A stretch of 34,458 nucleotides of DNA from Sorangium cellulosum (GTDB lineage: Bacteria; Myxococcota_A; Polyangia; Polyangiales; Polyangiaceae): contig DYPH01000060.1 in the NCBI GenBank assembly GCA_020720045.1, forward strand, positions 1 through 34,458. The letters are read 5' to 3'. The notes under the pieces are model-generated. The model ran no database searches and had not been told where the DNA came from. It saw nothing but the letters and a program-made list of their open reading frames with translations. The position numbers and the translations under genes were made by a program. The stretch's first letter is position 1. Each line of letters begins with the position of its first letter. Shown one piece after another: positions 1 through 34,458 of this stretch.

Positions 1-2
1 TT

Positions 3-1361: not shown

Positions 1362-1384
1362 CGGCTCACGCCCGCGCGTAAACG

Positions 1385-1422
1385 AAAGAAGGTCCGCGTG
1401 CCCCAGGCAGCGAACCTTCTTT
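1385..1422. terminator. Bidirectional hairpin terminator
   Basis: The arm AAAGAAGGTCCGC pairs with GCGAACCTTCTTT (13 bp, one mismatch) around a 12-base loop. The T-rich 3' flank (CTTTTGTT on plus, CTTTCGTTT on minus) would allow termination in both directions. It lies 24 bases after the RCC1 stop codon. Confidence 0.7.
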
Positions 1423-1552
1423 TGTTCCCACTTCGATCGTGTCGAAGGTGCCTTTGCGACCGGTCACCCCAATTTTAAAAGGAGTGACCGAACCACGCGG
1501 CGTCGATGCCGGCTTCGGCGATAATCTTCTCTAGCTTCCAATGGCAGAGCGG

Positions 1553-1569
1553 TACGTGGTTTCCACAAT
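1553..1569 (+). promoter_or_regulatory. 17-base regulatory motif, copy A
   Basis: TACGTGGTTTCCACAAT, identical to the copies at 8685-8701 and 15559-15575 on the other strand. It contains the dyad GTGG-TTT-CCAC. Here it reads toward the small lipoprotein/tail-collar pair, 237 bases before the TTG start at 1807, or 38 bases before a doubtful ATG at 1608. Its function (operator or promoter element) is inferred from recurrence and position. Confidence 0.6.
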
Positions 1570-1794
1570 TGTTGGACCGCGCACCGTGATCGTATTCTCC
1601 GTCGGCGATGCACGAAGTGCTCCCGAAATCGCCGTCGTCATTGCAGCATCTGCGTGCACGGAACTGCTCGGTATCGAAGGCGAATGTCGACGTCGACCTG
1701 GTCCATATCCACAAAGAACCCGACGTCAGCTCGCCGATGCCTCTTGACGTCGCGAAGAACGCCGCGGTCGTCGAGATTGTCGCCAATTGCATCT

Positions 1795-1800
1795 AGGAGG
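1795..1800 (+). promoter_or_regulatory. Strong ribosome binding site fixing a TTG start
   Basis: AGGAGG lies six bases before TTG 1807. It is the best Shine-Dalgarno sequence nearby and is the reason for starting the lipoprotein at this TTG rather than at the upstream in-frame ATG at 1654, which would bury the signal peptide. Confidence 0.65.
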
Positions 1801-1806
1801 ACCTGT

Positions 1807-2085
1807 TTGAACTATTCCAAAAGACTCATCGCCTTTATTCCGCTCATTATCGCATCGAGCCCCCTTTCTCTGCTCGCGTGCGAACCGACCCCGTCGCCGA
1901 CCACGCCCAGCGAAGATGCAGGATCGCCGGACGTTCCCGATGGCGGCACCGCGGACAGTGGCACGACCGACAGTGGCGCTCCTGACAGCGGCTCGAAGAT
2001 CGACGCAGGTTCCGACACCGGCGGCAGCCCCTGCGTTCTCGACAATCCCACTTCTACCCTCGATAGCTGCACTCTTTCCCTGTGA
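1807..2085 (+). CDS. Small lipoprotein with Asp/Ser/Gly/Thr-rich tail
   Basis: This is a 92-residue protein translated from a TTG start behind a strong ribosome binding site. It has a basic N-terminus (KR at 5-6), a hydrophobic core and a lipobox LLAC with lipidated Cys25. The rest is a low-complexity spacer with repeated DSG/TDSG units and two further Cys near the C-terminus. No catalytic domain is visible. Such Asp/Ser/Thr/Pro-rich stretches after the lipid anchor are common in myxobacterial surface lipoproteins and probably act as flexible tethers. Its stop overlaps the GTG start of the tail-collar gene by four bases (GTGA), so the two are translationally coupled and may act together at the envelope. 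The function is unknown. Confidence 0.65.
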   Translation: MNYSKRLIAFIPLIIASSPLSLLACEPTPSPTTPSEDAGSPDVPDGGTADSGTTDSGAPDSGSKIDAGSDTGGSPCVLDNPTSTLDSCTLSL

Positions 2086-2816
2086 GGATGCCCATGTTCC
2101 CCTTCGCCTCTTTGAAGAAGAATCCGTTCGCGCACATCGGCATTCCCCTCGCACTCGTCCTCGTTGGGACGCTCGCCTACGCGGGGGTTCCACGCACATT
2201 TTCCGCTGGGCAGCCGCTCCGCTCCGCCGACCTCAATGATAATTTTTCCGCCCTCTCCGCCCAAATCGACGCCCTTGCGGCGAAGTCGGGCGTCCCGACC
2301 GGCACCGTCGAAGCGTGGGCGGGAGACACGGGGAAGATCCCGGCCGGCTGGGTGCTGTGTGACGGCCGTTCCCTCGACAAAGCCCAGTTCCCCGCCCTCT
2401 TCGACGCCATCGGCTTCGCCCACGGCGGAAACGGCGCCAGCGCATTTAGCGTCCCCGACCTTCGCGGCCGCTTCCTGCGAGGCGTCGACAACGGGTCGAC
2501 GCGCGACCCGGGTCGCGACACGCGCACCGCCGCCCAGCCGGGGGGCAACGTCGGGAACGCCGTCGGCACCGTCGAGGCCGATAGCCTGAAGACCCACACC
2601 CACGGTGTCACCGACCCCGGCCACAGCCACGCCATCCCAACCGACAACGGTGTGGGGGGCGGCTTCAACGAGGTGCCGACCGGAATCGGTCGCGGCTACG
2701 ACTACGCCCCAAACGAGCCGACGTCGCGCGAGACGACCGGCATCTCAATCAACGCGGCAGGCAGCGAGGAGACGCGCCCCGCCAACGTCGCCCTGAACTT
2801 CATCATCAAGACCTGA
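2082..2816 (+). CDS. Membrane-anchored phage tail collar domain protein
   Basis: The protein has 244 residues and a GTG start coupled to the preceding gene. A hydrophobic segment at about residues 19-34, after a KK, acts as a signal peptide or anchor. A short helical stretch follows (DLNDNFSALSAQIDALAA, coiled-coil-like). Then comes a Tail Collar domain (PF07484 type) at about 75-140, with GTVEAWAG, PAGWVLCDG and FSVPDLRGRFLRG. The C-terminus has a His-rich segment (HTHGVTDPGHSHA) and ends ETRPANVALNFIIKT, typical of short tail-fibre tips. In phage this fold forms trimeric fibre parts. In myxobacteria similar domains occur in single secreted proteins, and no other phage gene is present here, so a domesticated surface fibre or adhesin is more likely than a prophage remnant. 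A strong terminator follows. Confidence 0.8.
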   Translation: MRMPMFPFASLKKNPFAHIGIPLALVLVGTLAYAGVPRTFSAGQPLRSADLNDNFSALSAQIDALAAKSGVPTGTVEAWAGDTGKIPAGWVLCDGRSLDKAQFPALFDAIGFAHGGNGASAFSVPDLRGRFLRGVDNGSTRDPGRDTRTAAQPGGNVGNAVGTVEADSLKTHTHGVTDPGHSHAIPTDNGVGGGFNEVPTGIGRGYDYAPNEPTSRETTGISINAAGSEETRPANVALNFIIKT

Positions 2817-2834
2817 ACGGGCGACCCGAAAAAG

Positions 2835-2873
2835 AAAGAGCCGTACGACCCCAACGGATCGCACGGCTCTTTT
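2835..2873. terminator. Bidirectional hairpin terminator
   Basis: AAAGAGCCGT and ACGGCTCTTT form a perfect 10-bp stem around an 18-base loop, with a T run after the right arm and an A run before the left arm. It sits between the stop codons of two convergent genes (2816 on plus, 2900 on minus) and can serve both. Confidence 0.75.
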
Positions 2874-2899
2874 GCGTAACGTGTGGTCTGGCGCTTCGC

Positions 2900-3433
2900 T
2901 CACTCGGGCTTCTTGGCGGCGCGGGACTTTGCGGCGCGGGCGGCCGGGGCTGCGTAAAAGTCGATGGCCGGGGCGAGCTTGCTGCGGGCCCCCGCGTCGA
3001 GCTTCGCCAGCGGCTTGGCGATTTCGTAGGCGGCGAGGAGCGGGCGGCGCACCGCCTCGCCGAGGAGGAGCTGCGTGTCGCGCACATCGCGGGCGAGCGC
3101 CTCAAGGGCATCGGCGAAACTGCCGAGGAGCTCCGCGGAACGGAGGCTGTCGCGGAGGCGGGCCGTCTCGAAGACGGTCGGGTCGACGCCGCCATCCCGG
3201 TCGGCGAGGACGGCGAACGACCCCGGGTAGGCCTCGGCGACGTCGAGGACCGCCTCAAGGGCGCGCGGCTCGCCGTCGCGAAAGCGGCCGTCGCTCGCTT
3301 TCCGCTCCTCGAGGGTGAGCGTCATGAGGCCCGGCAACTCCTCCGAGGCCCCCTCCAGCGCCTTCTGCGCGCGCCCGAGCGTCGCTTCGAGCTCCGCCGC
3401 CGTCTGCTCCTGGATCTTCTTCTTCTTCGACAT
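2900..3433 (-). CDS. Helical protein of unknown function
   Basis: The protein has 177 residues. The ATG at 3433 was chosen because GGGGAG lies eight bases upstream; the longer frame to 3514 adds an Arg/Gly-rich leader without such a site. The sequence begins MSKKKKIQEQ, is almost entirely predicted helix with many Ala, Leu, Glu and Arg, and ends in an Ala/Lys-rich basic tail (AAKSRAAKKPE). There is no signal peptide, membrane segment or recognisable catalytic motif, so it is probably cytoplasmic. I do not recognise the family. The basic tail could contact nucleic acid, but that is a guess. The gene stands alone, converging on the tail-collar gene with a shared terminator. Confidence 0.65.
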   Translation of the reverse strand: MSKKKKIQEQTAAELEATLGRAQKALEGASEELPGLMTLTLEERKASDGRFRDGEPRALEAVLDVAEAYPGSFAVLADRDGGVDPTVFETARLRDSLRSAELLGSFADALEALARDVRDTQLLLGEAVRRPLLAAYEIAKPLAKLDAGARSKLAPAIDFYAAPAARAAKSRAAKKPE

Positions 3434-3638
3434 GCGATCACTCCCCAAAAGCGAGGGAGATCCCGCCACGCCGAGCGCACCCCAGCGACCGCGCCCGTGG
3501 CCCCCCACGGGCACACCAAGCCTCCGACGTTCCCCCTACGCGGCGAGAAAATCATGGCGCCTTCGCGCTGTCTAGGGCCTTCAACGGAGGCATCCGTCCG
3601 CAAAGCGGGAGAAGGCGCGGAGGTCTGAGCAAAGGCGT

Positions 3639-4967
3639 TTAGGGGAGTTTGAGTTCGACGGGCTGCGCGTAAATCGCGGGGACTGTCGCTCCCGTTGCAA
3701 GCTGGGCGTGGCTATTGTCGCCCCAGCAGAAGATTCTGCCGCCTGCCGTCTTTGCGCACGTGTGGTGATATTGAGCACTGAGTTCGACGACGCTAGAAAG
3801 CGGTTTTGTCTCCCCCACCGGCGTCGTTACGAGCGCCGGAATTCGCACGGTGCCTTGTCCGCCAAGACCGGTCTGCCCGAGGTCGTTGATGCCCCAGCAG
3901 GCGACCGATCCAGACGCGCCAAAACTGACGCACGTGTGGCCATTCCCGGCCGTGATTGCCCGCACATCGCTTATGCCGGTCACGGGAACGAATGTACGAC
4001 TGTTCTGGACATCGGGGAACGTCCCAAGCGTGCCGTACTGGTTGTCGCCCACGCAACGAACAGCCCCATCTTTCACGATGCACGTGAACGATGCGCCGGC
4101 GGCAATGAGGTCTGCACTTCCTGGAGGAGCCACTTGCACCGGAACACGAGAGATGAGTGATTCATCTTTCACGATGAGACCTTCAATCGTCTCGCCCCAG
4201 CACCAAACGGCGCCGTCCCGAAGCACCGCACAGGCGTGGCTATCGCCAACTGCGAGCGCTTTGGCCGGGCCGAGATTCCGAACCGGCGTCGGCGTCGGAT
4301 TGAACTCGTCGGTCCCCCCGTTTCCGAGTTCCCCGTGAGCGTTCCATCCCCAACAAAGAACCTGGTCGTTGGCAGCGATGGCGCAGTTGAATCCCTTCCC
4401 ACTGTCGAGCGTCTTCACCCCGGAAATACCGGCGACCTTTTGTGGTGCGGTAACGGGTCCGGCATTGCTGCCTACCGCGCCGAACCCGTCGTCCCCCATG
4501 CAATAGACGTCCCCTGGGGCGGCAACAAAGCACGAATGGGTGAAGTTTCCGGTTCCGCTCACAAAGTCCGAAGCGAGTGGATTGATGGCGAAAGCCTTCG
4601 AATCTTGATCGGCCTCTCGCTGAAGCTGCCCGTTGCCGACCTGGCCGTAATAGTTCCACCCGACACAGCCGACACGACGGGCATCGGCAAGGCAGGTATG
4701 AAGGGAACCGACGAACATCCGCGGATAGGGAGCGACGGTCGGGCCGGCATCGATCGCCGCAGAATCGCTTGAACTATCCCCAACAGCGCCGTCCGAGGCA
4801 TCGGGCACCTCCCCATCGGCGGCATCAACTGCGGGGGCAGCGTCAGACGCCGTACACGACCCCGCATCCGACTGGGTGCAAATGCACGTTGTCGGCGAAG
4901 AGCACGCAACGAACGTCCCCCCCGCGGCGACGGACGACGCGAGAAGAAATAGCAAATGAGCTTTCAT
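3639..4967 (-). CDS. RCC1-repeat lipoprotein (seven blades)
   Basis: The protein has 442 residues. The ATG at 4967 is preferred over the GTG at 4976 because AGGTGG lies about six bases before it. The signal peptide ends in lipobox FVAC (Cys22). An Asp/Ala/Ser-rich tether follows (about 23-78), then seven RCC1-type blades. The CWG-equivalents are CVGWN, CMGDD, CWGWN, CWGET, CVGDN, CWGIN and CWGDN, each preceded by an HTC/HSC/FNC/HAC/FTC element. This is the most divergent RCC1 copy in the window, with shorter linkers. The predicted product is a lipid-anchored, disulfide-rich seven-bladed propeller in the envelope. It lies 66 bases downstream of the gene at 5034-5981 on the same strand, so it may be the distal gene of that operon. 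The ligand is unknown. Confidence 0.85.
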   Translation of the reverse strand: MKAHLLFLLASSVAAGGTFVACSSPTTCICTQSDAGSCTASDAAPAVDAADGEVPDASDGAVGDSSSDSAAIDAGPTVAPYPRMFVGSLHTCLADARRVGCVGWNYYGQVGNGQLQREADQDSKAFAINPLASDFVSGTGNFTHSCFVAAPGDVYCMGDDGFGAVGSNAGPVTAPQKVAGISGVKTLDSGKGFNCAIAANDQVLCWGWNAHGELGNGGTDEFNPTPTPVRNLGPAKALAVGDSHACAVLRDGAVWCWGETIEGLIVKDESLISRVPVQVAPPGSADLIAAGASFTCIVKDGAVRCVGDNQYGTLGTFPDVQNSRTFVPVTGISDVRAITAGNGHTCVSFGASGSVACWGINDLGQTGLGGQGTVRIPALVTTPVGETKPLSSVVELSAQYHHTCAKTAGGRIFCWGDNSHAQLATGATVPAIYAQPVELKLP

Positions 4968-5033
4968 CCATTCCACCTATCTTGAGATACGATGCGTTAG
5001 AGCACCGATGCACTCGTGGCCATACCAGGTCTT

Positions 5034-5981
5034 CTAGAAGCGAAACTGTGCGGAAATGGACCCGCTTTTTCCGTCGGTCATGCCGGAGACATCGACCTTC
5101 TCTCGCCACGGCGCAAATGCGAGAATACCCGCGCCAACTAGAGAGACCGCAGCACCACCTACAAACACGATGGTCGATACATTTGCCGTCGACTGCGCCG
5201 ATTTAAATGCGTCGGTATCTGCACTCGTATTGCAAACATTTCCCGTGCATCCCGCCGGCTTCTTGCTTGCGGCAATGCCCCCGAAGATCCCGCCCGTCAC
5301 CAACGCGACCCCGCCAAGGCCGAGGAGAACGCCGCCGACGGCCGGATAGGCGGTCGGGCGAGACGGGGCAGGTTCAGTGGCAACACCTTTTGCCGGCGCC
5401 GCCGGGGCCACCGCGCGCTCGGGAACTTTGCAGACGCGCTCGGCGCTGCAGGCAAGGCCACCGGTGCAGTCGGCGTCATTTCGACACTTTCCGCGGAGAA
5501 AGACGACTTCGACGCGGTTGGCCGACTGGGGCACCACCACCGTCTCGAGGTCCTTAGGCGCCTCACCGGCGAGGCGGACAGAGATCTTTCGTGCCCCCTC
5601 GAGTGCATCAAACGCTGCATTCGCTTTCGCGGGGCGCCCATCAAACAGCACCTCGGCGTCATTGATCGGGCTGCCGGAGGCGTCATGTACGAGGACGACC
5701 ACCCGTCCGATATGGCTCGCGGCCGCCGAACGCTGCTCGCCGCAGCGTTCCAAGAGGCCGCTCGCGCTCTCTCCACAGGTGGTGCACTGTCTCGCGCAGG
5801 AGATGCAGGCCTCGGCGGCGCTGTAAGAGGCGAGCCAATCGCTCGCCGCGCTGCTCTTCATCGATGAGGAGAGCTGCTCGATGCAGGTCGCGGCCGAATT
5901 TTGGGCGGCGGCCGGAGAAGCAAGCGCGAGGAGCGTTGCGACCCCGGCGACCACGTGCATCAACTTTTTCATTCGGATCAT
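5034..5981 (-). CDS. Secreted two-TM protein with Cys-loop module
   Basis: The protein has 315 residues, with signal peptide ending SPAAAQ at about 27. It carries a Cys-rich N-terminal region (CISCARQCTTC), then a beta-type domain (RVVVLVHDASGSPINDAEVLFDG, carboxypeptidase-regulatory/Ig-like) at about 90-165. A short Cys motif (CRNDADCTGGLACSAERVC) and a Pro/Ala linker follow. The C-terminus holds two TM helices (about 215-235 and 270-290) flanking a loop with a GCTGNVC Cys pair. This TM-Cys-loop-TM module is also present at the C-terminus of the caspase-like protein at 10099-11358. It is probably an inner-membrane or envelope protein. The gene starts three bases after the kinase stop, so it is in the same operon and may be a kinase partner. 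Function unknown. Confidence 0.75.
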   Translation of the reverse strand: MIRMKKLMHVVAGVATLLALASPAAAQNSAATCIEQLSSSMKSSAASDWLASYSAAEACISCARQCTTCGESASGLLERCGEQRSAAASHIGRVVVLVHDASGSPINDAEVLFDGRPAKANAAFDALEGARKISVRLAGEAPKDLETVVVPQSANRVEVVFLRGKCRNDADCTGGLACSAERVCKVPERAVAPAAPAKGVATEPAPSRPTAYPAVGGVLLGLGGVALVTGGIFGGIAASKKPAGCTGNVCNTSADTDAFKSAQSTANVSTIVFVGGAAVSLVGAGILAFAPWREKVDVSGMTDGKSGSISAQFRF

Positions 5982-5984
5982 CGC

Positions 5985-7412
5985 TCAGTTTTTCGTGCAG
6001 ATTTCAATGCGACCGCCGCCGTAGTCACGAAGCCCCTTCACGCACGGAGGCTTCGCCGGCAAAGGCGGTTGAGGTTTCGGAGTCTGTGGGCGCATCTTCA
6101 CAACCGGGGTCGGGTCCCCGGAAATCGAGGGGAGTGGGATCGGAACGAAACCGGCGTCCAGCGGAGCGGGGCTCGAAGCCGCGTCGAGCGGAGCGGTGCT
6201 TGGAGCGGCATCGACGGGAGCGGGACCAGGACCGGCGTCGGTCCGTGCCTGGTCGGGAGGTAGCGACGGCGCGCGAAGGGCAAAGCCGGCAACGACCGCC
6301 GCGACGACCGCGACGTCTGCGGCGACGAACTTCCAGAGCGGAGTGCGATCGCTGTGATGGGGGACGCCGGCGACCGGGCCGACCGTCTCGCTCGGCGGGA
6401 CGGCCCGCAGCAGCGGTAGCTCGCCGGGCTCCGGTCGCCAGGTCGCCTCCCGAAGCGGCGGCGACGAGACTGCAGGGGCCGGCGATACGAACCGTTGAGG
6501 GGCCGTCGGAAGCCCGTAGGCGGTCGCCGCGAGCGCGTAGTGGTTCGCGTCGGCCTCGGCGAAGGGCGCGAGGGCAGCAGCAAACTCTCCCATGCTCGCG
6601 AAGCGATCGGCCTGCTTCTTCGATAGCGCCCGCGCAAGCACGTCGGCGAGACCGCTCGGATAGCCGCGGACGACGGCGTCGGCGCGCGGTGCCTCTTGGC
6701 CCACAACCTTGAAAAGGAGCTCCTGGATCGACTCGCCGTCAAAGAGCGTTCGTCCGGTCGTTAACTGAAACAATGTTGCTGCGAGGGCGTAGATATCCGA
6801 GCGCGCATCGGCCAATTTTCCGTCGGTGACCTGTTCCGGCGGCATGTATTGGGGGGAGCCGATCATTCCGGCGGTCATGGTTCGATTCGTACCGCTCGCG
6901 ATCCCAAAATCGAGGATGCGCACAAGCCCCCGACCGGCACCCGGCTTGGCAGGATCGACGACGTCACACCAGAAAAGGTTTGCCGGCTTAATATCGCGGT
7001 GGGTGACCCCTTTCGCGTGGGCCGCCGCAAGCCCTTCCGAGACCTGAAGGACGTAACGGACCGCCTCCACAATCGGCAGCACTCCTCGCGAATGGAGGAC
7101 CTCATCAAGGTCCCGCCCTTCGTGGAAGTTCATCACGAGGTAAGGGACGCGGTCCTCGATCCCGAAGTCGATCACCTTGACGATGTAGGGACTCTCGACG
7201 GTATGGGCGGTCTTCGCCTCATGTTGAAAGCGGGCGGCGAACTCGGCCTCATTGCCCCCTTGGAGGGTCATGAATTTGATCGCGTACTCCGAGCCGAGTG
7301 CGATATGGCGCGCCTTCCAAACTTCGCCCATACCTCCGCGACCGAGAAGTCTGAGGAACTCGTATTTCCCAAGGAATACAAATCCTGGGGCAAGGCGGCT
7401 TAAGAGGTCCAT
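5985..7412 (-). CDS. Transmembrane serine/threonine protein kinase
   Basis: The protein has 475 residues. An N-terminal Hanks-type kinase domain spans about 17-285 and contains the glycine loop GRGGMGEV (24-31), ATP-binding Lys46, helix-C Glu65, catalytic loop HRDIKPAN (Asp140), DFG (168-170) and activation segment GSPQYMPPE (185-193). All key residues are intact, so it should be active. A Pro/Ala-rich juxtamembrane linker leads to one TM helix (about 361-379). A short Ala/Pro/Asp repeat region follows outside the membrane, then a C-terminal tail with two Cys (PCVKGLRDYGGGRIEICTKN), possibly a disulfide-closed sensor. It starts three bases after the stop of the secreted DUF1566 gene and ends three bases before the next gene. 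The context suggests that it signals on the state of envelope proteins encoded in the same operon. Confidence 0.93.
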   Translation of the reverse strand: MDLLSRLAPGFVFLGKYEFLRLLGRGGMGEVWKARHIALGSEYAIKFMTLQGGNEAEFAARFQHEAKTAHTVESPYIVKVIDFGIEDRVPYLVMNFHEGRDLDEVLHSRGVLPIVEAVRYVLQVSEGLAAAHAKGVTHRDIKPANLFWCDVVDPAKPGAGRGLVRILDFGIASGTNRTMTAGMIGSPQYMPPEQVTDGKLADARSDIYALAATLFQLTTGRTLFDGESIQELLFKVVGQEAPRADAVVRGYPSGLADVLARALSKKQADRFASMGEFAAALAPFAEADANHYALAATAYGLPTAPQRFVSPAPAVSSPPLREATWRPEPGELPLLRAVPPSETVGPVAGVPHHSDRTPLWKFVAADVAVVAAVVAGFALRAPSLPPDQARTDAGPGPAPVDAAPSTAPLDAASSPAPLDAGFVPIPLPSISGDPTPVVKMRPQTPKPQPPLPAKPPCVKGLRDYGGGRIEICTKN

Positions 7413-7415
7413 CGA

Positions 7416-7907
7416 CTAGCTCGCCTGGCGAACACACCGAAGAAAGACAGTCGTCGGCCCCGCCTCGATGCCAAAGCGTTCGGTAACGCCGCTTTCAAAA
7501 TCGAAGAGAAATGCTGTTCGTGCACTCGAAAACCGGGGACCACGGGACTGGGTCAGTGCGGGAAGACGCGGCGTCGCTGGAAAGGCGGCGGTATCAATAT
7601 GCAGACCCGTGACTACCGAGGTATCCTCCAGGGAAAGCACCTCAAGGAGCGTTGGTACGTGCCACTTGTCGACCGATGTCGCCCCGAGGTTCAGCGCCGC
7701 GCAGCGCCCCGGTCCGTCAGCGAACACTTGGTAGGCGGGGCCGGTCACTTCAACGCCCCGCTGCCATTCGAGGTGGGTCTGCGTGTCGTAAACGACGGCG
7801 CCATTGGCGCGAAATTCGTAGCGACACGGGGGTGCTTTTGCAGTAACCGCTGTGGCCGTAAGTGCAAGTGCGACGAGGAGACTGGCGGAATAGAGGCGAT
7901 GTTTCAC
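7416..7907 (-). CDS. Secreted DUF1566 (Lcl C-terminal) domain protein
   Basis: The protein has 163 residues. The GTG at 7907 was chosen because it overlaps the upstream stop as GTGA and is directly followed by a good signal peptide (KHRLYSASLLVALALTA, cleavage near VTA-KA). The remaining domain matches the DUF1566/Lcl pattern: YDTQTHLEWQRG, then CAALNLG, WHVPTLLEVLSL, SSARTAFLFDFESG and a C-terminal FLRCVR. These domains resemble C-type-lectin-like/FGE folds and occur on bacterial surface proteins; binding is their presumed role. It has one Cys near the start of the mature protein, one in the middle and one near the end, so a disulfide is likely. It lies between a lipoprotein with the same domain and the Ser/Thr kinase in a four-gene coupled operon. 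Confidence 0.8.
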   Translation of the reverse strand: MKHRLYSASLLVALALTATAVTAKAPPCRYEFRANGAVVYDTQTHLEWQRGVEVTGPAYQVFADGPGRCAALNLGATSVDKWHVPTLLEVLSLEDTSVVTGLHIDTAAFPATPRLPALTQSRGPRFSSARTAFLFDFESGVTERFGIEAGPTTVFLRCVRQAS

Positions 7908-8617
7908 TTGACGCACCTGACGCGAAGACTCTGTGTCGGAAACTGGGGATCTGGTCGGCTTTCCCCTGGGCCGTGGCTGACGGTCCAAATCTGGCCTGTT
8001 GGAGTTTTTGAAGAACTCCAGTACCCTTGCCCAACGGACGTATCGGCCATCTCGGTGATGCCCGCCGGCGAGATCCCATTCGTCGGCACATCGTTTGGAG
8101 CGAGGAAGTCCGGTTTGAAGGCGTTATATTGGACGACGGTGAAGAGTTCGAATTTGGTAGGAATACGCCAGCCCGTCAAGCCACCAATGGAGAGCGTCCT
8201 GCAGATCTCTTCGGCCTGGGAAAATGTCACCAGTACCGGCTGACCATTGCCATCAACCGTCTTTAACTGCCACTTCAAGCCGGTGCGGGTATCTTCGGTC
8301 GCTGTCGTCGTAGAGCGCCAGCGACCATCGTCTTCAAAGGAGGATGGGGACGAGATTACGACGGTCGGCATGTCGGTGGCGAAAGGGCCACCTGCGTCGG
8401 GGAAGTCACAGCTAGGACCAGCCTCTGTCGTCGTCGAATCGGCGGTACTTGCCTCCTCCGTGGGGCCCGCATCGCTTTCGGAATCTTCGCCCTCTCCCGC
8501 GTCCATAATTCCAGGATCACGAGTGACAGGTTCGCCGGAGATACCGAGGATGCTGGAGCATCCGAGCGGGGCAAGCAGGCCTAGGGCGAGAAGAAGTGTC
8601 GATCGATAAAATCGCAT
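7904..8617 (-). CDS. DUF1566 domain lipoprotein
   Basis: The protein has 237 residues. The ATG at 8617 gives a classic signal (MRFYRSTLLLALGLLAP) with lipobox PLGC, Cys20; an earlier GTG at 8698 lies inside the 17-base motif and would spoil the signal. After Cys comes SSILGISGEP, the CxxxLGI pattern also seen in two RCC1 lipoproteins here. An Asp/Glu/Ser/Thr tether follows (about 30-70), then a DUF1566 domain: TEDTRTGLKWQ, FSQAEEICRTL, LTGWRIPTKFEL, GYWSSS and a C-terminal LRVRCVK. It is first gene of the operon leading to the kinase, and motif copy C lies 67 bases upstream. Likely role: surface-exposed binding protein; the ligand is unknown. Confidence 0.83.
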   Translation of the reverse strand: MRFYRSTLLLALGLLAPLGCSSILGISGEPVTRDPGIMDAGEGEDSESDAGPTEEASTADSTTTEAGPSCDFPDAGGPFATDMPTVVISSPSSFEDDGRWRSTTTATEDTRTGLKWQLKTVDGNGQPVLVTFSQAEEICRTLSIGGLTGWRIPTKFELFTVVQYNAFKPDFLAPNDVPTNGISPAGITEMADTSVGQGYWSSSKTPTGQIWTVSHGPGESRPDPQFPTQSLRVRCVK

Positions 8618-8684
8618 GAGTTCCGATCCGGAGACGCAGGTCTCGTGGTTCTCAAGCGATACCAGTGGCGACGAAGTATCGTCT

Positions 8685-8701
8685 ATTGTGGAAACCACGT
8701 A
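8685..8701 (-). promoter_or_regulatory. 17-base regulatory motif, copy C
   Basis: TACGTGGTTTCCACAAT on the minus strand, 67 bases before the start of the DUF1566 lipoprotein. Together with copy B it shares 19 identical bases (TC is added at the 5' side). It is in the right place to be an operator or promoter element of the DUF1566/kinase operon. Confidence 0.65.
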
Positions 8702-8795
8702 GACACGGAGTCCGACACGAAAAATAATTCTACATCATTTCAAAGGCTTGATTGCGCGCACGATCTCGCAGTAGCAGCTACGGTTGTCCGTGCGG

Positions 8796-10102
8796 CTAAA
8801 AGACAACGGTCGATGGCGCCTGTCGGATGTTTCCCGTCGTTCCGTCGCCGACCTGGCCGTATTGGTTGTCCCCCAGCATTTCACGGTAGAATCGAGGAGA
8901 AGTGCGCATGTGTGTGACTGCCCAGCTGCCACAGACTTCACGCTGGCCAGAACCCGCGCCGGGCCGCTCTGGACGGTCGTCCCGATGCCAAGTTCGCCGG
9001 AGGCATTTGAGCCCCAGCAGTAGAGATTGCCATCGCTACGCAGCGCGCATGTGTGTCCACCGCCAGCGGCGCCTGCGGTGACTTCTGTTACGCCCGTATC
9101 GACGGGGTATGCGACTTTTGAATTTGCGCTCGCCAGAAGCTGCCCATTTGCATTGTTGCCCCAGCAGCGAAGCGTCCGATCGGTGAGCACCGCGCAGGTG
9201 TGAGAGGCACCGGCAAAAATCTGCGAAGCTGCAGGGAGCCCATTCACACTTGTCGGTGCAGCCCGTTGAATGAGCGTCCCATCTCCGAGCTGCCCTTGTT
9301 CATTGAATCCCCAGCACCTCACGCTTCCGGTCGCAAGCATCGCGCAGGTGTGAACGTCCCCCGCCACGAGTAAGGCGACATTCGTCGGCAACGCATCGAC
9401 GAGCGTCGGAAGCACCCGTGCGTCGGTCGTGCCATCGCCGCACTGCCCGTAGTCGTTGCGCCCCCAGCACTTCGCCGCCCCCGTCGAAAAGAGCGCGCAG
9501 GTGTGGGAGCCACCTGCTGCCAGTCGGTCGGCGCCAATGACGCTTTGAACCGCCGTTGGCGTGGCTCGGTCGATCGTTGTCCCGTCCCCGAGGCGGCCCT
9601 CCGGATTGCGCCCCCAGCAGCGCGCGCTCCCGTCCGTTGTGCGCGCGCAGGTGTGGACATCGCCTGCAATGATTTCAGTCGCTTGAAGACCGGGAATCCG
9701 CGTCGGAACCAAGCGGTTTGTCGTTGTTCCATCCCCGAGCTCCCCCTCGGAGTTTCGCCCCCAACAGCGAACGCTGGCATCGGAGAACTGCGCGCACGTG
9801 TGATAATTTCCTGCGACCAGCGCCGTCGGAATCACGGGATCGGTGCACGCGCCGTCGACACAGGAATCCTTGCATGGCGTCGTGACCGCCCAAGTGCCGG
9901 CCGTGCACCGTTCGGCGTTCCCGGAACTGCATCGCACTTGCCCGTCGGCGCATGCCGGTAGAGTCGCATCGGGCGTGTCCGCGCTCGAGCCAGCTTCCGT
10001 GGGAATTGCAGGCTCAGCCGGCAGTTCATCCAACCCAAGAACGGCGTTGCAGCCGAGCCCGCTGGTGAGGACTGCGAATAGTCCCGTAACCAGCCGCCTC
10101 AT
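8796..10102 (-). CDS. RCC1-repeat lipoprotein, last blade frame-broken
   Basis: ATG at 10102 overlaps the stop of the caspase-like gene by four bases (ATGA). The signal peptide has lipobox GLGC (Cys18), followed by NAVLGLDELPA and a spacer with four further Cys. RCC1 blades read CWGRN three times, then CWGFN, CWGNN and CWGSN, with short linkers of the GDGTTTNRLVPT type. In the seventh blade the frame as given leaves the family after KCWG and runs on to 8735. Adding one G to the five-G run (plus positions 8870-8874) restores DNQYGQVGDGTT and a TAG stop at 8796, giving 435 residues and a full seven-bladed propeller. The indel is either a sequencing error or a slippage site. The protein is lipid-anchored and extracytoplasmic; its partner is perhaps the co-encoded caspase-like protein. 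Confidence 0.82.
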
Positions 10103-11358
10103 CGAAACACCCCCGTCACCTGGACACCTCCCGGCCCCGCGAGGACGCCGACGCGTTCCTGGGACGACGGCGACGTGAACCACAAGGCACCACCGATCCC
10201 CATGACGACTCCGCCGCCGATCGCGAAGCCGGTCGCGACGTTTCCAAGCGCGCGCGAAGCGGACGCCTGCGCGCGCGCGTCCTCCGGGCAACCGAGCGAC
10301 GAGCACTGGCGCGCCGCCTCATCGTAACGAGACTTGGCAACTGCGGCGAACCCACCGGCCGTGAGGAGCCCCGCAAGGCCAACACCAGCCACAGCAATTC
10401 CGGTGGTCTTCTGGCCAGAAGTCCGCGCCCCACCGCCGAGAAAAAGCGCGGCGAGGTCGGGCTTGGGCTCCGTTGCGTGCTCGCTCAATTCTACGTCCTT
10501 GTCGGACGAAAAATAGGAAGGCGTTTGCGCGTGAGACTGAGGAAGAACGGCAAGAGTTTCCGCGGAATAGTCGACCGCCTCGGCGAGCGTTACTTTGCCA
10601 TCTCGATTCGCATCTCCCCACCCACGCAGCGCGCCCAGTATCAAGTAGCTAAATGCAGGTCGCCCTTCTCCAGGAAGCTCACCAGCAAACTCATCACTCT
10701 TGGCCGCAAGGGCCCAAGAAATCGTCGATGATGCTTTGACGTTCGTGGTGCCGATGAGCGGCTGTTCCCCGCTCGCAGAGAGACTCTTATTCGTTCTGTC
10801 ATGCCCACTAAAGCATGCATCAAGAACTACGACTGCGCGCGGGCCGCCTGCGTGTTCAATCGTACTCACGATCTCCGACTGTCGGACCGACCGCGTGGAA
10901 ATACTTGCCAGACTCTGCTGGGCATCCACCGCGACGATGGCCCCCTCCGGATCGCTGTCGCCAACCTTTACCGGCGCGCCATGCCCAATAAAAACGACCC
11001 AGAGTTTTCCGCCTTCCCTTACGGACCGCGCAGCTTTTTCGAGCGCCTGCAGGATCTGTTCACGCGTAGCATTCGAGTCGCGAATTTGGAAGACATGCGA
11101 CGCTGACATTCCGCCATTTTCGACGAAGTATCTGTACCAATCCCGAGCATTAGAGGTGGCACCGACAACATCGGAAACGAACGCGTAGTCTTCGACAGAA
11201 ATGACGAGCGCGGAATCATTGCTGGGTGTGGTCCGGAAGGACTTCTCAGAACTCGCCAGCGATGGCCAACGGGTTGGAGCCGCCGCATGGGGCGAACACC
11301 CGGTCGTCAGTAGTGCAAGTAGACCAGCGCAGAACGCAAATGACTGAAGATATGCCAT
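10099..11358 (-). CDS. Caspase-like (peptidase C14) lipoprotein
   Basis: The protein has 419 residues. ATG 11358 follows GAGAGG and gives a signal peptide with lipobox TTGC (Cys21). A caspase/metacaspase p20-like domain spans about 48-245, with catalytic His126 in FIGHG and Cys182 in LDACFSG. An EF-hand-like loop, DANRDGKVTLAE (249-260), follows; known metacaspases are often calcium-dependent. The C-terminus has two TM helices (about 320-341, 372-394) flanking a loop with Cys352 and Cys357, the same module as in the protein at 5034-5981. An envelope location is unusual for this protease class. The gene begins 10 bases after one RCC1 lipoprotein and overlaps the next by four bases, so all three are co-expressed. 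Substrate and role (envelope processing or regulated death) are unknown. Confidence 0.88.
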   Translation of the reverse strand: MAYLQSFAFCAGLLALLTTGCSPHAAAPTRWPSLASSEKSFRTTPSNDSALVISVEDYAFVSDVVGATSNARDWYRYFVENGGMSASHVFQIRDSNATREQILQALEKAARSVREGGKLWVVFIGHGAPVKVGDSDPEGAIVAVDAQQSLASISTRSVRQSEIVSTIEHAGGPRAVVVLDACFSGHDRTNKSLSASGEQPLIGTTNVKASSTISWALAAKSDEFAGELPGEGRPAFSYLILGALRGWGDANRDGKVTLAEAVDYSAETLAVLPQSHAQTPSYFSSDKDVELSEHATEPKPDLAALFLGGGARTSGQKTTGIAVAGVGLAGLLTAGGFAAVAKSRYDEAARQCSSLGCPEDARAQASASRALGNVATGFAIGGGVVMGIGGALWFTSPSSQERVGVLAGPGGVQVTGVFR

Positions 11359-11368
11359 ACTGACCCTC

Positions 11369-12853
11369 TCAAAATCCGAGTTCGACCGGGGGGTAGCTCG
11401 CCCCGAGCTGTCCCGCCGCAACGCCGCGATCGTTCGCATCGCCCTGCCCAAGTTGGCCGAAATAGTTCCGCCCCCAACATCGAACGCTCTTGTCCGCCAA
11501 TTGAACGCACGTGTGAAAACCGCTCGCGCGCACCTTGACGGCCCGGCCTGGACCTAAGTCGACTTCCCGCAGGCTCGAGCCCATCTCATTGGGCTGATCG
11601 CCAACATTTGCCGTGTTCCCAAGACCAAGCTGACCGTAGAGATTGAAGCCCCAGCACTTCACTGCACCGCTAGAGAATCGCGCACATGCATGCGCCGACC
11701 CGGCAGCAATCTCCTCTACGGTCCCGGCACCGAGGTCAACCGGAGGGAGATATGCCCCCATTTCTCCGGGAGCATCCCCTCGATTTTCAAGGTCACCATA
11801 GCCAAGTTGCCCGAAGTTGTTGTGCCCCCAACACTTCACAGAGTTTCCGCTTATGATGGCACAAACAAATGCATCACCCGCCGCGATACTCACAATCTTC
11901 TTTCCCAGACCAACGTCAATATCCGGGAGTTTTGCGGGAAGAGTGCCTGCCGTGTCTCCACGGTTTGCGGTATCGCCAGTGCCGAGTTGCCCTGCGAAGT
12001 TGAATCCCCAACAGCGCGCACTCTGGTCCTCCAACACCGCACAGGTAAAGTTCCGACCGACAGCGACCGCCGTTGGATTTTTTGGAAGCCCCAGCAGACC
12101 GAGCTGGTTCCCCATTTCGCCAGGACGCGATCCGCGGTCATAGGCGTCACCAAGCCCGAGCTCGCCGTGTCCGTTTGAGCCCCAACACTTCAGACCCGAC
12201 GGCGCCAGCAACGCGCATGCGTGCCAAGCGCCAGCGAACACACGACGGACGGTGAGCCCGGCCCCCAGGTCTACCGCCGGCAACGAGCTCCCCATTTCGC
12301 CGGGGTCGTCGCCGCGAGGGCGCGTGTCGCCATTCCCGGTCTCCCCATAGTCGGAGCGCCCCCAACACTTCAGCGCTCCCGTGGCCGAGCGCGCGCACGC
12401 ATACCCCGCCCCCACGGAGACCTGGTCACTCGACTGCGCGAGCGAGACCTCCGGCAGCGCCGTCCCCATTTCCCCGGGCCCGTCGCCGCGATTGTTTGAA
12501 TCGGCGAGCCCCAGTTTTCCGTAAGAATTTTCCCCCCAACACTTCACGGCACCGTCGGAGGCGACGAGACAAACAGAGTCACCGCCGGTTGCGATGTCAT
12601 CCACCGTACGCTCTCCGCTATCGGTTTTCGGTCCGCCGTCGACCCGCGCGCCATCGCTCGAAGGCGCATCGTAGGACGTCACATCGCCGCCTCCGTCGGT
12701 CGTAGCAGGCGAACCGTCGGGAACGGCGGCATCCGCCGTTCCACTGGGAACAGCGGGGAGCTCCGCAATGCCGAGCGCCGCATTGCATGCCCCTAGGAGC
12801 ACGAGCGCGCTGAATGCTGGCGCTCGCGGAGTGAATTTTCGACGAAGAAACAC
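11369..12853 (-). CDS. RCC1-repeat lipoprotein, first gene of caspase operon
   Basis: The protein has 494 residues. GTG 12853 was chosen because it gives a compact signal (MFLRRKFTPRAPAFSALVLL) with lipobox LGAC, Cys23, and leaves the 17-base motif 34 bases upstream; the longer frame to 12940 reads through that motif. After Cys comes NAALGIAELPA, then an Asp/Ser/Gly spacer. Seven blades are marked CWGEN, CWGRS, CWGSN, CWGFN, CWGHN, CWGFN and CWGRN. Linkers are of the long type (GD..NRGD..GEMG..LP.VDLG), shared with the gene at the window start, its likely paralog. Each blade has an HTCA/HACA-type and a CWG Cys, so up to seven disulfides are possible. It is predicted to be a lipid-anchored propeller displayed outside the inner membrane. 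Confidence 0.87.
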   Translation of the reverse strand: MFLRRKFTPRAPAFSALVLLGACNAALGIAELPAVPSGTADAAVPDGSPATTDGGGDVTSYDAPSSDGARVDGGPKTDSGERTVDDIATGGDSVCLVASDGAVKCWGENSYGKLGLADSNNRGDGPGEMGTALPEVSLAQSSDQVSVGAGYACARSATGALKCWGRSDYGETGNGDTRPRGDDPGEMGSSLPAVDLGAGLTVRRVFAGAWHACALLAPSGLKCWGSNGHGELGLGDAYDRGSRPGEMGNQLGLLGLPKNPTAVAVGRNFTCAVLEDQSARCWGFNFAGQLGTGDTANRGDTAGTLPAKLPDIDVGLGKKIVSIAAGDAFVCAIISGNSVKCWGHNNFGQLGYGDLENRGDAPGEMGAYLPPVDLGAGTVEEIAAGSAHACARFSSGAVKCWGFNLYGQLGLGNTANVGDQPNEMGSSLREVDLGPGRAVKVRASGFHTCVQLADKSVRCWGRNYFGQLGQGDANDRGVAAGQLGASYPPVELGF

Positions 12854-12887
12854 TCCGAGGAAAAACCACAGCGCCCCCGAGCCTACA

Positions 12888-12904
12888 ATTGTGGAAAACA
12901 CGTA
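12888..12904 (-). promoter_or_regulatory. 17-base regulatory motif, copy D
   Basis: TACGTGTTTTCCACAAT, one mismatch from the other three copies; the mismatch weakens the GTGG-TTT-CCAC dyad. It is 34 bases before the GTG start of the RCC1/caspase/RCC1 operon and reads toward it. Confidence 0.55.
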
Positions 12905-12992
12905 GTCGCTCGGTGACGTGAACGCGCGATGGCTCAACACGCACTCGCGCAGTCATTCACAATTCATTGGGACCTCGCCCCCAAGAACGCCC

Positions 12993-14174
12993 CTACTTCT
13001 TCGCCGCTTTCCCAACAGCCGCCTTCGTGGCCGCTTCGTCGGAAGCGGAAACTTTCCCGGTCTTCTTCTTCTCTTCGAGAGCCTTTTCTGCAGCAAGAAC
13101 AGCGGCATGGTCGACCGCCGCCTTGCTTACGTAGGCCTGCACCTTCACCACCTGAAGATGGTCGGGGGAGTTCTGCTTCTTGATGCAGAACTTCTGCCCC
13201 TTCACTTCGCTCACGAGGCCGTTTGCAAGCGCCGTCGTAAAGGTCGTCCCACTGAGGAGCCCCTTCGTCAGCGACGAAGACTGCTTCGTCTCGGTGACAA
13301 TTTCCTGGCCAAGGTGATCGACGATCTGCTTGCGGGCGTCGAGCATGGCCGAGTTCCGGGCGTCACTCTCGTTCACCGCCGGCGCAGAGACGCCGCAGAA
13401 GTAGAGGCCGCTGTCGTCCGTCGGAAGGTTCATGCAAAAGCCGCAGTCGGTGCCCCCGGTGACGTCCTGCACCTCGCCGGTGACCGTCGGTCGAAAGGCA
13501 AAGTAGGTGTCATTGAAGGACTTGACCTTCTTCCACTTCGTCGCGTCGGAATAGGAGACGTTTGCCGCGGCGACCGGAATGCTCAGCTCCGCTTGGGCAT
13601 GAGCATCAGTCATAGCGAGCGCGTACATTTCGCCGGTCCCTCGGACGAACTCCCCCACGGCCAGCTTGGTGCAGGCACCGGAGTTTTCCCGGCAGCAGGT
13701 GCTGAGCTTCTCCGCGTCGCTCACAACCTGCATCTTCTCGGTAATCTTATAGTGAACCCGATAGACGGTTCCGCTCGACTTCGACGCGGATGCGGCCCCC
13801 GCCGCGGTTCCGTGACTGCCGGAGATCCCGCCGGCGATCGTGCTCGAAGCGATCAGATATTCGTCCATTTCCTGATCGGCTTTCACGATCTTCGTGGAAA
13901 AATATTTTGAGCACTTCGTATTCGAGGCTTCGCTCTCGTCCAGGTTGGGACTGCTCGCGTCGAGGCCGGCCGGGAAGAAGTGCCCCGCGTAAACGGACGG
14001 GTCGGCATCAAAGGCGGCGCGAATTCGAAGCGCTCGCGACGGCGACACGGTCTGAACTTCGCCGAAGCCGTCCGGAACGACTGGCGGCTGCGGCGACGCC
14101 GTCCCACACGCGGTGACGACGAGAAACGTTGCGAAAACAAGGGAAGCCGGAATGAACAGGGGCTGGGGTTTCAT
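12993..14174 (-). CDS. Lipoprotein with Cys-rich core and LPP20-like segment
   Basis: The protein has 393 residues with lipobox VTAC (Cys23). The mature part includes a Ser/Gly/Ala-rich segment (IAGGISGSHGTAAGAASASKSS) and several Cys pairs (CC at about 160, CGFC, YFCGVS). A stretch, FCGVSAPAVNESDARNSAMLDARKQ read in two parts, resembles LPP20/DUF400-like lipoproteins, in which an Ala/Asp-Ala-Arg helix recurs. The C-terminus is a Lys/Ala/Glu-rich helix. It starts 13 bases after the stop of the DUF4384 gene with TGAGGA as ribosome binding site, so the two form an operon. No enzyme motif is visible. The family assignment is tentative; envelope lipoprotein is the safe call. Confidence 0.7.
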   Translation of the reverse strand: MKPQPLFIPASLVFATFLVVTACGTASPQPPVVPDGFGEVQTVSPSRALRIRAAFDADPSVYAGHFFPAGLDASSPNLDESEASNTKCSKYFSTKIVKADQEMDEYLIASSTIAGGISGSHGTAAGAASASKSSGTVYRVHYKITEKMQVVSDAEKLSTCCRENSGACTKLAVGEFVRGTGEMYALAMTDAHAQAELSIPVAAANVSYSDATKWKKVKSFNDTYFAFRPTVTGEVQDVTGGTDCGFCMNLPTDDSGLYFCGVSAPAVNESDARNSAMLDARKQIVDHLGQEIVTETKQSSSLTKGLLSGTTFTTALANGLVSEVKGQKFCIKKQNSPDHLQVVKVQAYVSKAAVDHAAVLAAEKALEEKKKTGKVSASDEAATKAAVGKAAKK

Positions 14175-14187
14175 GGAAGAGCGGTCC

Positions 14188-15522
14188 TCACGGGCAGGGG
14201 GGAAGTGCGGCGACGGCCTTCGCCACCTCCGCGGAATGTTTGGGGTCGACGGCCGGGCAGGTGGGCCCGTCGAGCACGCGGTAGCCGGTCACTCCCGCGG
14301 TGAGACCCGGCGGGAGTCCCCCGGAAAGGAGCGTCGCTGCCGTGTTTGAAGGGAGCACACAGGCGCGCTTCATCGATTTGTAGGGCCCGAGCGCCTCTTC
14401 CGTCGGTGCCGCGACGACCATAAAGCGCTCGTGGGAACTGCCAGCGAGCGGGTACGCTTCGAAGGTTCCCAAATTGAGAGGCTGCCCGGCACGAAGAAAT
14501 CCGTTGCCACCTTCTGGGTAGAGGAGGGTGCCTGCGTCCTTCCCCCAAAGGTCAAATACGCGGATGAAAACATCGCGGTCGAGCGACTGAGCCCACAGCG
14601 TCGTCGTCTCGCCGGGGCAAAGACTGCCCCCCGGATGGGGGCTCGTCATCGCGACCGAAAGCGCCGGTGAAGACGGGAACTTCGGGAGCGGCGGTGGCGG
14701 CGTAGGCCCTGCAATCGTTGGAAATTGGGCCGGCTCCAGGGTGAGCTTTCCACCGGCATGATAGGCTTCCCAAATCACCTCCACCGTCGGCAGCCCGGCG
14801 GCACTCCGCGTGTGGAGGCGTCCGACGACGATGACGTCCCAGTCGGCGGGAATTGGCATCCCGGGCGTCCAGGGCATCGGCGGGGAGACGGTCCCGTCGG
14901 GGAATTTAGCTTGGTAGCGTAGGGCGACCCAGTCGGCGCGTGTACCGCCGGGGGTCGTCGCCTCCGTCGCACTGGTCGACTCATCGTCAAACACCCGCGC
15001 AATCGCGATTTTCTTCCGCTTCGCCAGCGAAAGAATTCGCTCAGCCCCTGCCTTCAACGCGCGATCGAAGTCGGCCAGGCTGGGGGAGTTCCATTCGTCG
15101 ATGCACTGCTTTCGGATCGCGACCGAGGCGCAGACACTCTTGTTGTTTCGCCCGGTCTTCCACGGATCGATGCACTTCGCGAGGTAGGTGCATTCCGCCG
15201 AATCGGGGGCGAGCGAGCCGCAGCTCGCTGCCCGAAGTTTGTCGCGAGCGAGCGCCTGGGCGCGTTCGAGGGCATCGGGAGCCCCCGCCTCTACGGAAGC
15301 GACCTCGACGCGCCAACCGCCTGCAATATCAGGCGGTTCTCCAAAGCAATTCCAAGCAACGCTTGGCGCTGCCTCCGGCGGGCGTGGGCTCAGCGGCCCG
15401 GCGGGTCCGGCGGTGGGTGACCCGGCCGGTCCTGGCGGGGACGCGGGGTGCGTCTGCTCCTTCGTGGAGGCGCAGGCGACGAGGAGAAGGAGGCTCGAAA
15501 GGATTGCGGAGCGGCCAGCCAT
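14188..15522 (-). CDS. DUF4384 domain lipoprotein
   Basis: The protein has 444 residues. ATG 15522 gives signal MAGRSAILSSLLLLVAC with Cys17 lipidated; the longer frame to 15648 has no signal. A Pro/Gly/Ala tether (about 20-52) is followed by a Cys-containing alpha/beta region (about 60-255) with ERAQALARDKLRAASCG, resembling LPP20-type lipoprotein helices. A DUF4384-like domain spans about 300-372: CPGETTTLWAQSLDRDVFIRV, then TLLYPEGG, GFLRAGQPLNL and ERFMVVAAP. DUF4384 is often found fused to, or encoded beside, caspase-like peptidases and Ser/Thr kinases, and both occur in this window. Motif copy B lies 36 bases upstream. It is first gene of a two-gene operon and is divergent from a LuxR-type regulator. 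Confidence 0.82.
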   Translation of the reverse strand: MAGRSAILSSLLLLVACASTKEQTHPASPPGPAGSPTAGPAGPLSPRPPEAAPSVAWNCFGEPPDIAGGWRVEVASVEAGAPDALERAQALARDKLRAASCGSLAPDSAECTYLAKCIDPWKTGRNNKSVCASVAIRKQCIDEWNSPSLADFDRALKAGAERILSLAKRKKIAIARVFDDESTSATEATTPGGTRADWVALRYQAKFPDGTVSPPMPWTPGMPIPADWDVIVVGRLHTRSAAGLPTVEVIWEAYHAGGKLTLEPAQFPTIAGPTPPPPLPKFPSSPALSVAMTSPHPGGSLCPGETTTLWAQSLDRDVFIRVFDLWGKDAGTLLYPEGGNGFLRAGQPLNLGTFEAYPLAGSSHERFMVVAAPTEEALGPYKSMKRACVLPSNTAATLLSGGLPPGLTAGVTGYRVLDGPTCPAVDPKHSAEVAKAVAALPPCP

Positions 15523-15558
15523 GGGGGCCGAAGGCACCAGGTTTCCGCGCCGGTCACC

Positions 15559-15575
15559 ATTGTGGAAACCACGTA
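15559..15575 (-). promoter_or_regulatory. 17-base regulatory motif, copy B
   Basis: TACGTGGTTTCCACAAT on the minus strand, 36 bases before the DUF4384 lipoprotein start, in the divergent region shared with the LuxR-type gene. It is identical to copies A and C. Confidence 0.65.
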
Positions 15576-15621
15576 GATCTCCGGCGGGGCAAGCCACAGC
15601 GCCCGTCGATGCACGCCGCCG

Positions 15622-15638
15622 ACTGTGGAAATCCCTTA
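15622..15638 (-). promoter_or_regulatory. Degenerate second half-copy of the motif
   Basis: Thirteen of 17 positions match the motif, with core TTTCCACAG. It starts 63 bases from copy B, about six helical turns, so it would lie on the same DNA face. The match could still be chance. Apart from B and this site, nothing recognisable was seen in the divergent region 15523-15798. Confidence 0.3.
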
Positions 15639-15827
15639 CTGGGCGCAAACGGCTCGCCCCCTAAAGGGTGTCTTTTCCGCGACGCGGCGCATCTGACGCG
15701 GCGTGCAGCGCATTTCGGTAGCTGACTTGTGGGGCACGCCTTAGCGTCGATGCGTTGAAATGAATGTGCCTCCGTTGCCCCCGCGGCGGAACGCATCGAT
15801 GCGCAAATTCGTCGAACGTCTCCGCAC

Positions 15828-34336: not shown

Positions 34337-34423
34337 ATGAGCATTCTCCGGATTTCGTTCGCCGCGTTCGCGCTCGCCTCGGTCTCTTTCCTCGCCTGTT
34401 CGTCTGAAGGACCGGTCCTCTGA
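34337..34423 (+). CDS. Possible very small lipoprotein
   Basis: This is a 28-residue ORF: MSILRISFAAFALASVSFLA, then CSSEGPVL. It has a basic residue, a hydrophobic core and a lipobox LAC (Cys21), and only seven residues follow the Cys. The layout recalls entericidin-like mini-lipoproteins. No ribosome binding site is evident, and the stretch after it (34424-34458) holds nothing recognisable, so it could be the start of a longer gene broken by an indel or a chance ORF. Confidence 0.4.
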   Translation: MSILRISFAAFALASVSFLACSSEGPVL

Positions 34424-34458
34424 TTACACTTTGGCCCGGGAGCCTTGGTTACAGATCG

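Follow-up and report, generated by a model that had tools for sequence, protein, structure and literature searches.

A short directional sequence before the gene units of a variable Sorangium island and its possible role in a local regulon

The motif and the units that it precedes

The window analysed here is a 34,458-nucleotide stretch of Sorangium cellulosum DNA (contig C99 of the home genome G000, 6.34 Mb in 357 contigs). It contains units of genes for RCC1 and other lipoproteins, a caspase-like protein, and Lcl_C proteins together with a Ser/Thr kinase, and it holds three exact copies and one singly changed copy of the 17-mer TACGTGGTTTCCACAAT (w1 to w4; Table 1). At up to three mismatches only 0.01 matches are expected in the window, and none of 100 dinucleotide shuffles reached four; the four copies are thus far beyond chance, as the initial annotation had stated when it located them. 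The 20-base form TACGTGRTTTCCACAATNGT, scanned at the same tolerance, yielded six sites in the whole home genome, the four of the window and two on a second contig, C311 (c311a and c311b).

All six sites read toward a predicted gene start, 16-67 bases ahead of it. The gaps from the motif end to the predicted start codon are 16 bases at w1 (GTG), 67 at w2, 34 at w3, 36 at w4, 37 at c311a and 18 at c311b (GTG), and the recomputed values agree with those given previously for w2, w3 and w4. The earlier description of the copies as directional and situated just before the first genes of envelope or lipoprotein units is borne out.

Among the gene labels first proposed, Pfam confirmed Lcl_C (PF07603, which we take to be the former DUF1566), the Ser/Thr kinase, two RCC1 proteins and the collar protein. 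The caspase-like protein of the w3 unit, scanned as 10319-11358, matches NF047832 with 57.9 bits, under the curated cut-off of 140, and the DUF4384 label had to be dropped, as gene 14188-15522 has no Pfam match up to E = 1. On C311, c311a leads a caspase-like gene, homologous to that of the w3 unit (41% identity), and then an RCC1-like lipoprotein (both terms assigned by eye); c311b leads an RCC1/ZU5 protein. In a PADLOC search, kinase 5985-7412 matched many kinase models, the best being PD-T4-6 (2.6e-78), and the caspase model matched both caspase-like proteins (10319-11358, 9.6e-13; 386-1681 of C311, locus L009, 1.4e-08). These may be generic domain matches.

Table 1. Motif copies and surrounding genes (window coordinates unless a contig is named)
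Feature	Position	Strand	Basis and remarks
w1	1553-1569 (20-base form to 1572)	+	exact match
w2	8685-8701	-	exact match; G001 orthologue L010:5596-5612, 17/17 identical
w3	12888-12904	-	single substitution, T for G at position 7
w4	15559-15575	-	exact match; G001 orthologue L010:5821-5837, 17/17 identical
w4up, weak copy	15622-15638	-	4 mismatches; between w4 and GerE regulator; identical in G001 at L010:5884
c311a	contig C311 1716-1735	-	20-base form, up to 3 mismatches
c311b	contig C311 9837-9856	+	20-base form, up to 3 mismatches
Short lipoprotein-like frame led by w1	1586-1747	+	translation; putative, tentative GTG start
Small lipoprotein-like protein downstream of w1	1807-2085	+	translation
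Tail-collar-domain protein	2094-2816	+	PF07484 9.3e-20, scanned as 2082-2816
RCC1-like lipoprotein, end of w2 unit	3639-4967	-	translation; repeats by eye
Family-less protein, w2 unit	5034-5981	-	membrane segment by eye; no Pfam match up to E = 1
Ser/Thr protein kinase, w2 unit	5985-7412	-	PF00069 3e-41
Second Lcl_C protein, w2 unit	7416-7907	-	PF07603 40.8 bits, cut-off 34.9, scanned as 7416-7988
Lcl_C (DUF1566) lipoprotein, first gene of w2 unit	7904-8617	-	PF07603 55.6 bits, cut-off 34.9, scanned as 7904-8698
RCC1 lipoprotein, third gene of w3 unit	8735-10102	-	PF25390 1.3e-78, scanned as 8735-10306
Caspase-like protein, w3 unit	10099-11358	-	NCBIfam NF047832 9.8e-16 on 10319-11358
RCC1 lipoprotein, first gene of w3 unit, GTG start	11369-12853	-	PF25390 2e-58, PF13540 8.3e-50, scanned as 11369-12940
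Second lipoprotein, w4 unit	12993-14174	-	translation; no Pfam or NCBIfam match up to E = 0.01
Lipoprotein, first gene of w4 unit	14188-15522	-	lipoprotein signal by eye; no Pfam (up to E = 1) or NCBIfam match
GerE/LuxR-type regulator, divergent from w4	15828-16808	+	PF00196 2.8e-16; 96% identical in G001

Distribution and conservation of the motif

In the second species of the genus (G001, the only other genome of the genus compared; its assembly is 90% complete), TACGTGRTTTCCACAATNGT at up to three mismatches has three sites, all on a single contig and in the orthologous island. A reversed control pattern matched once in the home genome and nowhere in G001. The distribution fits a local regulon: the word stands before each of the six predicted unit starts and, at this tolerance, is absent elsewhere in both genomes. 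A genome-wide regulon was rejected, since no off-island site was found at up to three mismatches or in the form TCCACAAT-N18-21-TGGT. The undescribed envelope regulon proposed in the initial annotation therefore holds for one island but does not extend beyond it, with no further site in 6.34 Mb.

The scan of related Polyangia that had been suggested was negative outside the genus. At up to one mismatch, none of the other 57 of 59 relatives has the word; at up to two, a single match turned up in each of two genomes among 181 others from the order, in both cases inside long reading frames that by eye encode a response regulator and a methyltransferase. A family- or order-wide motif was rejected on these counts. 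An exact scan of GTDB contigs returned 16 stretches, namely the G001 contig with two copies and 15 single copies in other taxa, which is roughly what chance would give (about 20 by our own estimate), and two viral contigs carry a single match each. Because the outside scans were negative, the element is, as far as it could be searched, confined to one genus and one region. In the home genome, neither a scatter of copies in coding DNA nor a longer dispersed repeat, the two findings that the initial annotation had named as counting against its regulon, was seen. No mention of the 17-mer, its reverse complement or two shorter forms was found in the literature searched, and broader searches gave nothing on the element among the papers listed; within these searches both motif and gene set are novel, while the kind of system is familiar.

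Three of the home sites, w2, w4 and c311a, could be compared between the species, no counterpart of the w1 and w3 regions being found in the G001 assembly. At w2, the two 60-base blocks from the motif on are 58/60 and 57/60 identical, the upstream block 28/60, and the next six blocks 49, 41, 41, 53, 55 and 55 of 60; homology sets in no more than 6 bases from the motif, with unrelated DNA upstream. The w4 pair is identical over an unbroken 57 bases, which start four bases ahead of the motif and run up to, without including, the home start codon; some 38 bases upstream have diverged. The c311a pair shows a single difference over the 43 bases from the second motif base on, after which homology ends; here the upstream DNA is conserved. 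Judged from these alignments, motif and leader are held between the species and gene content, as well as upstream DNA at two of the three sites, appears not to be, which fits a promoter-proximal control region with its information in the motif and after it.

The island itself is variable and fast-changing between the species. About 6.8 kb (8708-15522) have no counterpart in the G001 assembly save short RCC1-type matches, and G+C content is lower in the left half of the window (0.60-0.67 before 16 kb vs 0.66-0.69 after). In G001, contig C265 matches five large pieces of C311 at 80-96% identity, though in a different order, and the left part of the c311a motif lies close to the end of C265; the right part lies close to the beginning of contig C27 (from 116), which continues with window-homologous sequence. 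As the two parts of one motif are thus held by these two contigs, C311, reversed, most likely joins the window at its left end, which would place the six sites within about 25 kb plus an unresolved gap. A mobile element has apparently inserted in the c311a motif of G001, with a 5-base duplication, TGATT, read from the two contig ends.

Repeats also lie at contig ends. The first ~52 bases of the window match, at 93-100%, at least 39 other places in the home genome, a large share of which are where a contig begins or stops. The same holds for both ends of C311, and the right end of the window (34406-34458) carries the element end found splitting the c311a motif in G001. It seems to be insertion-type elements of high copy number that break up this assembly.

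A candidate local regulon and its alternatives

On balance, we read TACGTGNTTTCCACAAT, followed by NGT at five of the six home sites, as a directional, promoter-proximal cis-element of the local regulon of a genus-specific island, read by a dedicated DNA-binding protein. Such a protein would recognise TACGTGNTTTCCACAAT as an asymmetric site and, once bound, would recruit or position RNA polymerase, with RNA starting downstream of the motif; the RCC1, caspase-like, Lcl_C/kinase and lipoprotein genes would be switched as one local regulon. If this is true, most of the island with its unusual surface proteins (RCC1 propellers, caspase-like enzymes, Lcl_C and kinase) would be a single switchable unit, one short word would find the island members and the regulator, and the gene content behind the element would turn over between species with element and leader staying in place.

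As to the binder, our guess is the GerE/LuxR-type protein at 15828-16808 or else a regulator-like protein of C311. The start of the former lies about 250 bases from w4 (ATG 15828), or about 185 if it is 15760 as in G001; the gene points away from w4 in both species, and the conserved weak copy w4up lies in between. Its helix-turn-helix passes the Sigma70_r4_2 cut-off (31.0 vs 25.7 bits) and scores higher as GerE (59.3). Relatives at E <= 1e-15 were found in 4 of 95 other genomes among the matches listed, with identity no higher than 39% and restricted to part of the protein. On C311 there are five further regulator-like frames (grouped by eye), with one weak GerE and one weak PAS match. These frames are neighbours (L009 1969-7639), three have no Pfam match up to E = 0.01, and they are rearranged in G001.

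Several known systems resemble the proposed one. In cluster-situated regulons, for example those of LuxR- or SARP-type regulators in biosynthetic clusters, a repeated binding word lies before each operon; likewise, a single word here precedes several units of one cluster, is absent elsewhere and has a GerE-type regulator at the cluster edge, whereas the genes are of envelope, caspase and RCC1 type, the motif is new and asymmetric, and the binder is a candidate. LuxR/NarL-type (GerE) sites also span ~20 bases near a promoter but are mostly dyads, and a dyad is not conserved here. Promoters of extracytoplasmic function or other alternative sigma factors, for which local regulons are common, are equally directional and near gene starts; the island element, in contrast, is one contiguous word of 17-20 bases with a second box that is weak at best, and no sigma factor occurs among the island frames scanned. 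By eye, w3 matches the core of the DnaA box consensus and the other copies nearly do so, but conservation here extends over 17-20 bases and is limited to one island.

Outside the word, common signals are faint. Upstream of the six home sites no word is shared beyond chance (148/300 shuffles equal for 5-mers). Downstream, a GC-rich word starting ~5-11 bases after the motif gives a weak signal (shuffles equal in 4/300 for 5-mers, 0/300 for 6-mers and 28/300 for 8-mers), as does TGGT 19-20 bases after the motif in w2, w3, w4 and c311a. Since the six leaders share only such weak signals beyond the motif, recent duplication of a longer stretch does not account for the common word. TGGT could be the downstream box of a bipartite promoter with the motif as upstream box and the RNA start near the start codon, and 4-letter words at this position are indeed equalled by just 3, 11 and 14 of 1000 shuffles at a jitter of 1, 2 and 3 bases. 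We nevertheless hold this arrangement to be unlikely, because 5-letter words do no better than chance (equalled by 807 to 976 of 1000 shuffles), TGGT is missing in w1 and c311b, where the best start codons occupy the expected box position, and TCCACAAT-N18-21-TGGT matches are confined to the island.

A dyad operator, in which a dimeric repressor or activator would bind GTGG-TTT-CCAC symmetrically, strikes us as quite unlikely. This core had first been described as an operator-like dyad, and it is a perfect 4+4 dyad in w1, w2 and w4; these three are, however, the only home sites with all four arm pairs intact, three of four being kept in w3 and c311a and two in c311b, and w4up likewise breaks two. 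The six home sites share TACG-x-GNTT-x-CC-x-CAAT (x, one site deviates). Position 7, which would belong to the left arm, varies among G, T and A, while the base paired with it never departs from C, and the strongest conservation falls on the asymmetric TTTCCACAAT. The conserved part of the motif is not the dyad.

We give little credence to the motif acting as a recombination site or element end that marks the 5' border of exchangeable gene cassettes. It would explain why species homology begins so close to the w2 motif and why the extra 6.8-kb home block ends at the w2 motif and the w4 start codon. Both copies flanking this block, though, survive in G001, so simple excision between the two does not account for it; moreover, the upstream DNA at c311a is conserved, and no partner end was recognised beside the sites. 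A combined version, with the 20-base word as both promoter and 5' boundary of surface-protein cassettes and new genes swapped in behind a fixed motif-plus-leader under the same local control, earns slightly less credence still.

A structured RNA leader is hardly credible: folding beats the shuffles at w2 (z -3.48) and at its orthologue (z -3.40), c311a reaches z = -2.23 and the leader is kept between species, but the other 7 of 10 leaders lie between -0.33 and +1.60, no common RNA or DNA fold was found among the leaders, and neither the window nor C311 has an Rfam match at the gathering threshold. A long hairpin occurs only in the w2 leader (8642-8701) and its G001 orthologue, where CGTGGTTT of the motif pairs with the downstream GAACCACG (z ~ -3.4). 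With regard to leaderless translation, ribosome-site energies do not discriminate, being -3.0 to -10.4 kcal/mol for motif-led genes and -1.7 to -15.4 for other genes, with start positions off or out of frame in four rows of this comparison (w2, w3, c311b and one regulator-like row). A coding explanation, a common N-terminal peptide, was rejected because the frame opening at the motif GTG is not that of the gene at w4.

Several observations weigh against the local regulon that we favour. That the motif controls transcription we infer from the sequence, and the regulator and the motif are linked only by proximity. Relative to G001, the regulator in the window lacks one base near 15854, so that its first ~30 residues are out of frame unless the start is at 15828 (the difference, within 15741-15860, may reflect a real frameshift, a different start or a mistake in the assembly). 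The start codons behind w1 and c311b are tentative GTG guesses, and a C311 RCC1/ZU5 gene (start 9626, minus strand) has no motif ahead of it at up to five mismatches. In the w2 comparison one later block (of 17) reaches 58/60 and is thus conserved like the leader. In G001, motif and leader persist both at w4, though the gene was not found in the assembly, and at c311a, where a mobile element splits the motif. Finally, a sigma-70 consensus scan of 1-16500 (-35 and -10 hexamers with a 16-18 spacer) gave two sites vs 2.0 expected, none correctly oriented at the motif: the one touching w2 (8700-8728, +) points the opposite way, and no -35 box is common to the motif copies. The 3' CACAAT may still be a -10-like element, as first suggested, but it has neither a right-facing sigma-70 site nor anything common at -35 to go with it.

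Repeated words in other caspase-bearing stretches

Five caspase-bearing stretches from four other genomes were searched for repeated words, and the following stood among the matches listed. One stretch has a repeated end that shares the 8-mer CGTGGTTT with the motif. As a relative of the motif this end was rejected: it is the right end of an ISCR/IS91-type transposon, and the overlap is for that reason treated as coincidence. The 23 transposon copies examined have one fixed end and a shared length upstream of ~30 to >900 bases. A search with PF04986 (Y2 transposase) gave no match in G000 or G001, and 14 control genomes were equally without a match. Copies of ISCR/IS91 type occur in two other genera of the family (G075, G012 and G006; L095, L100-L133 and L139-L141), and some end at gene starts. 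The caspase-bearing contig G057:C404 (L097, ~617-995) carries five copies like TTGCGGTC-N4-GAGAATGGCGG in ~380 bases, with more at 5784-5877.

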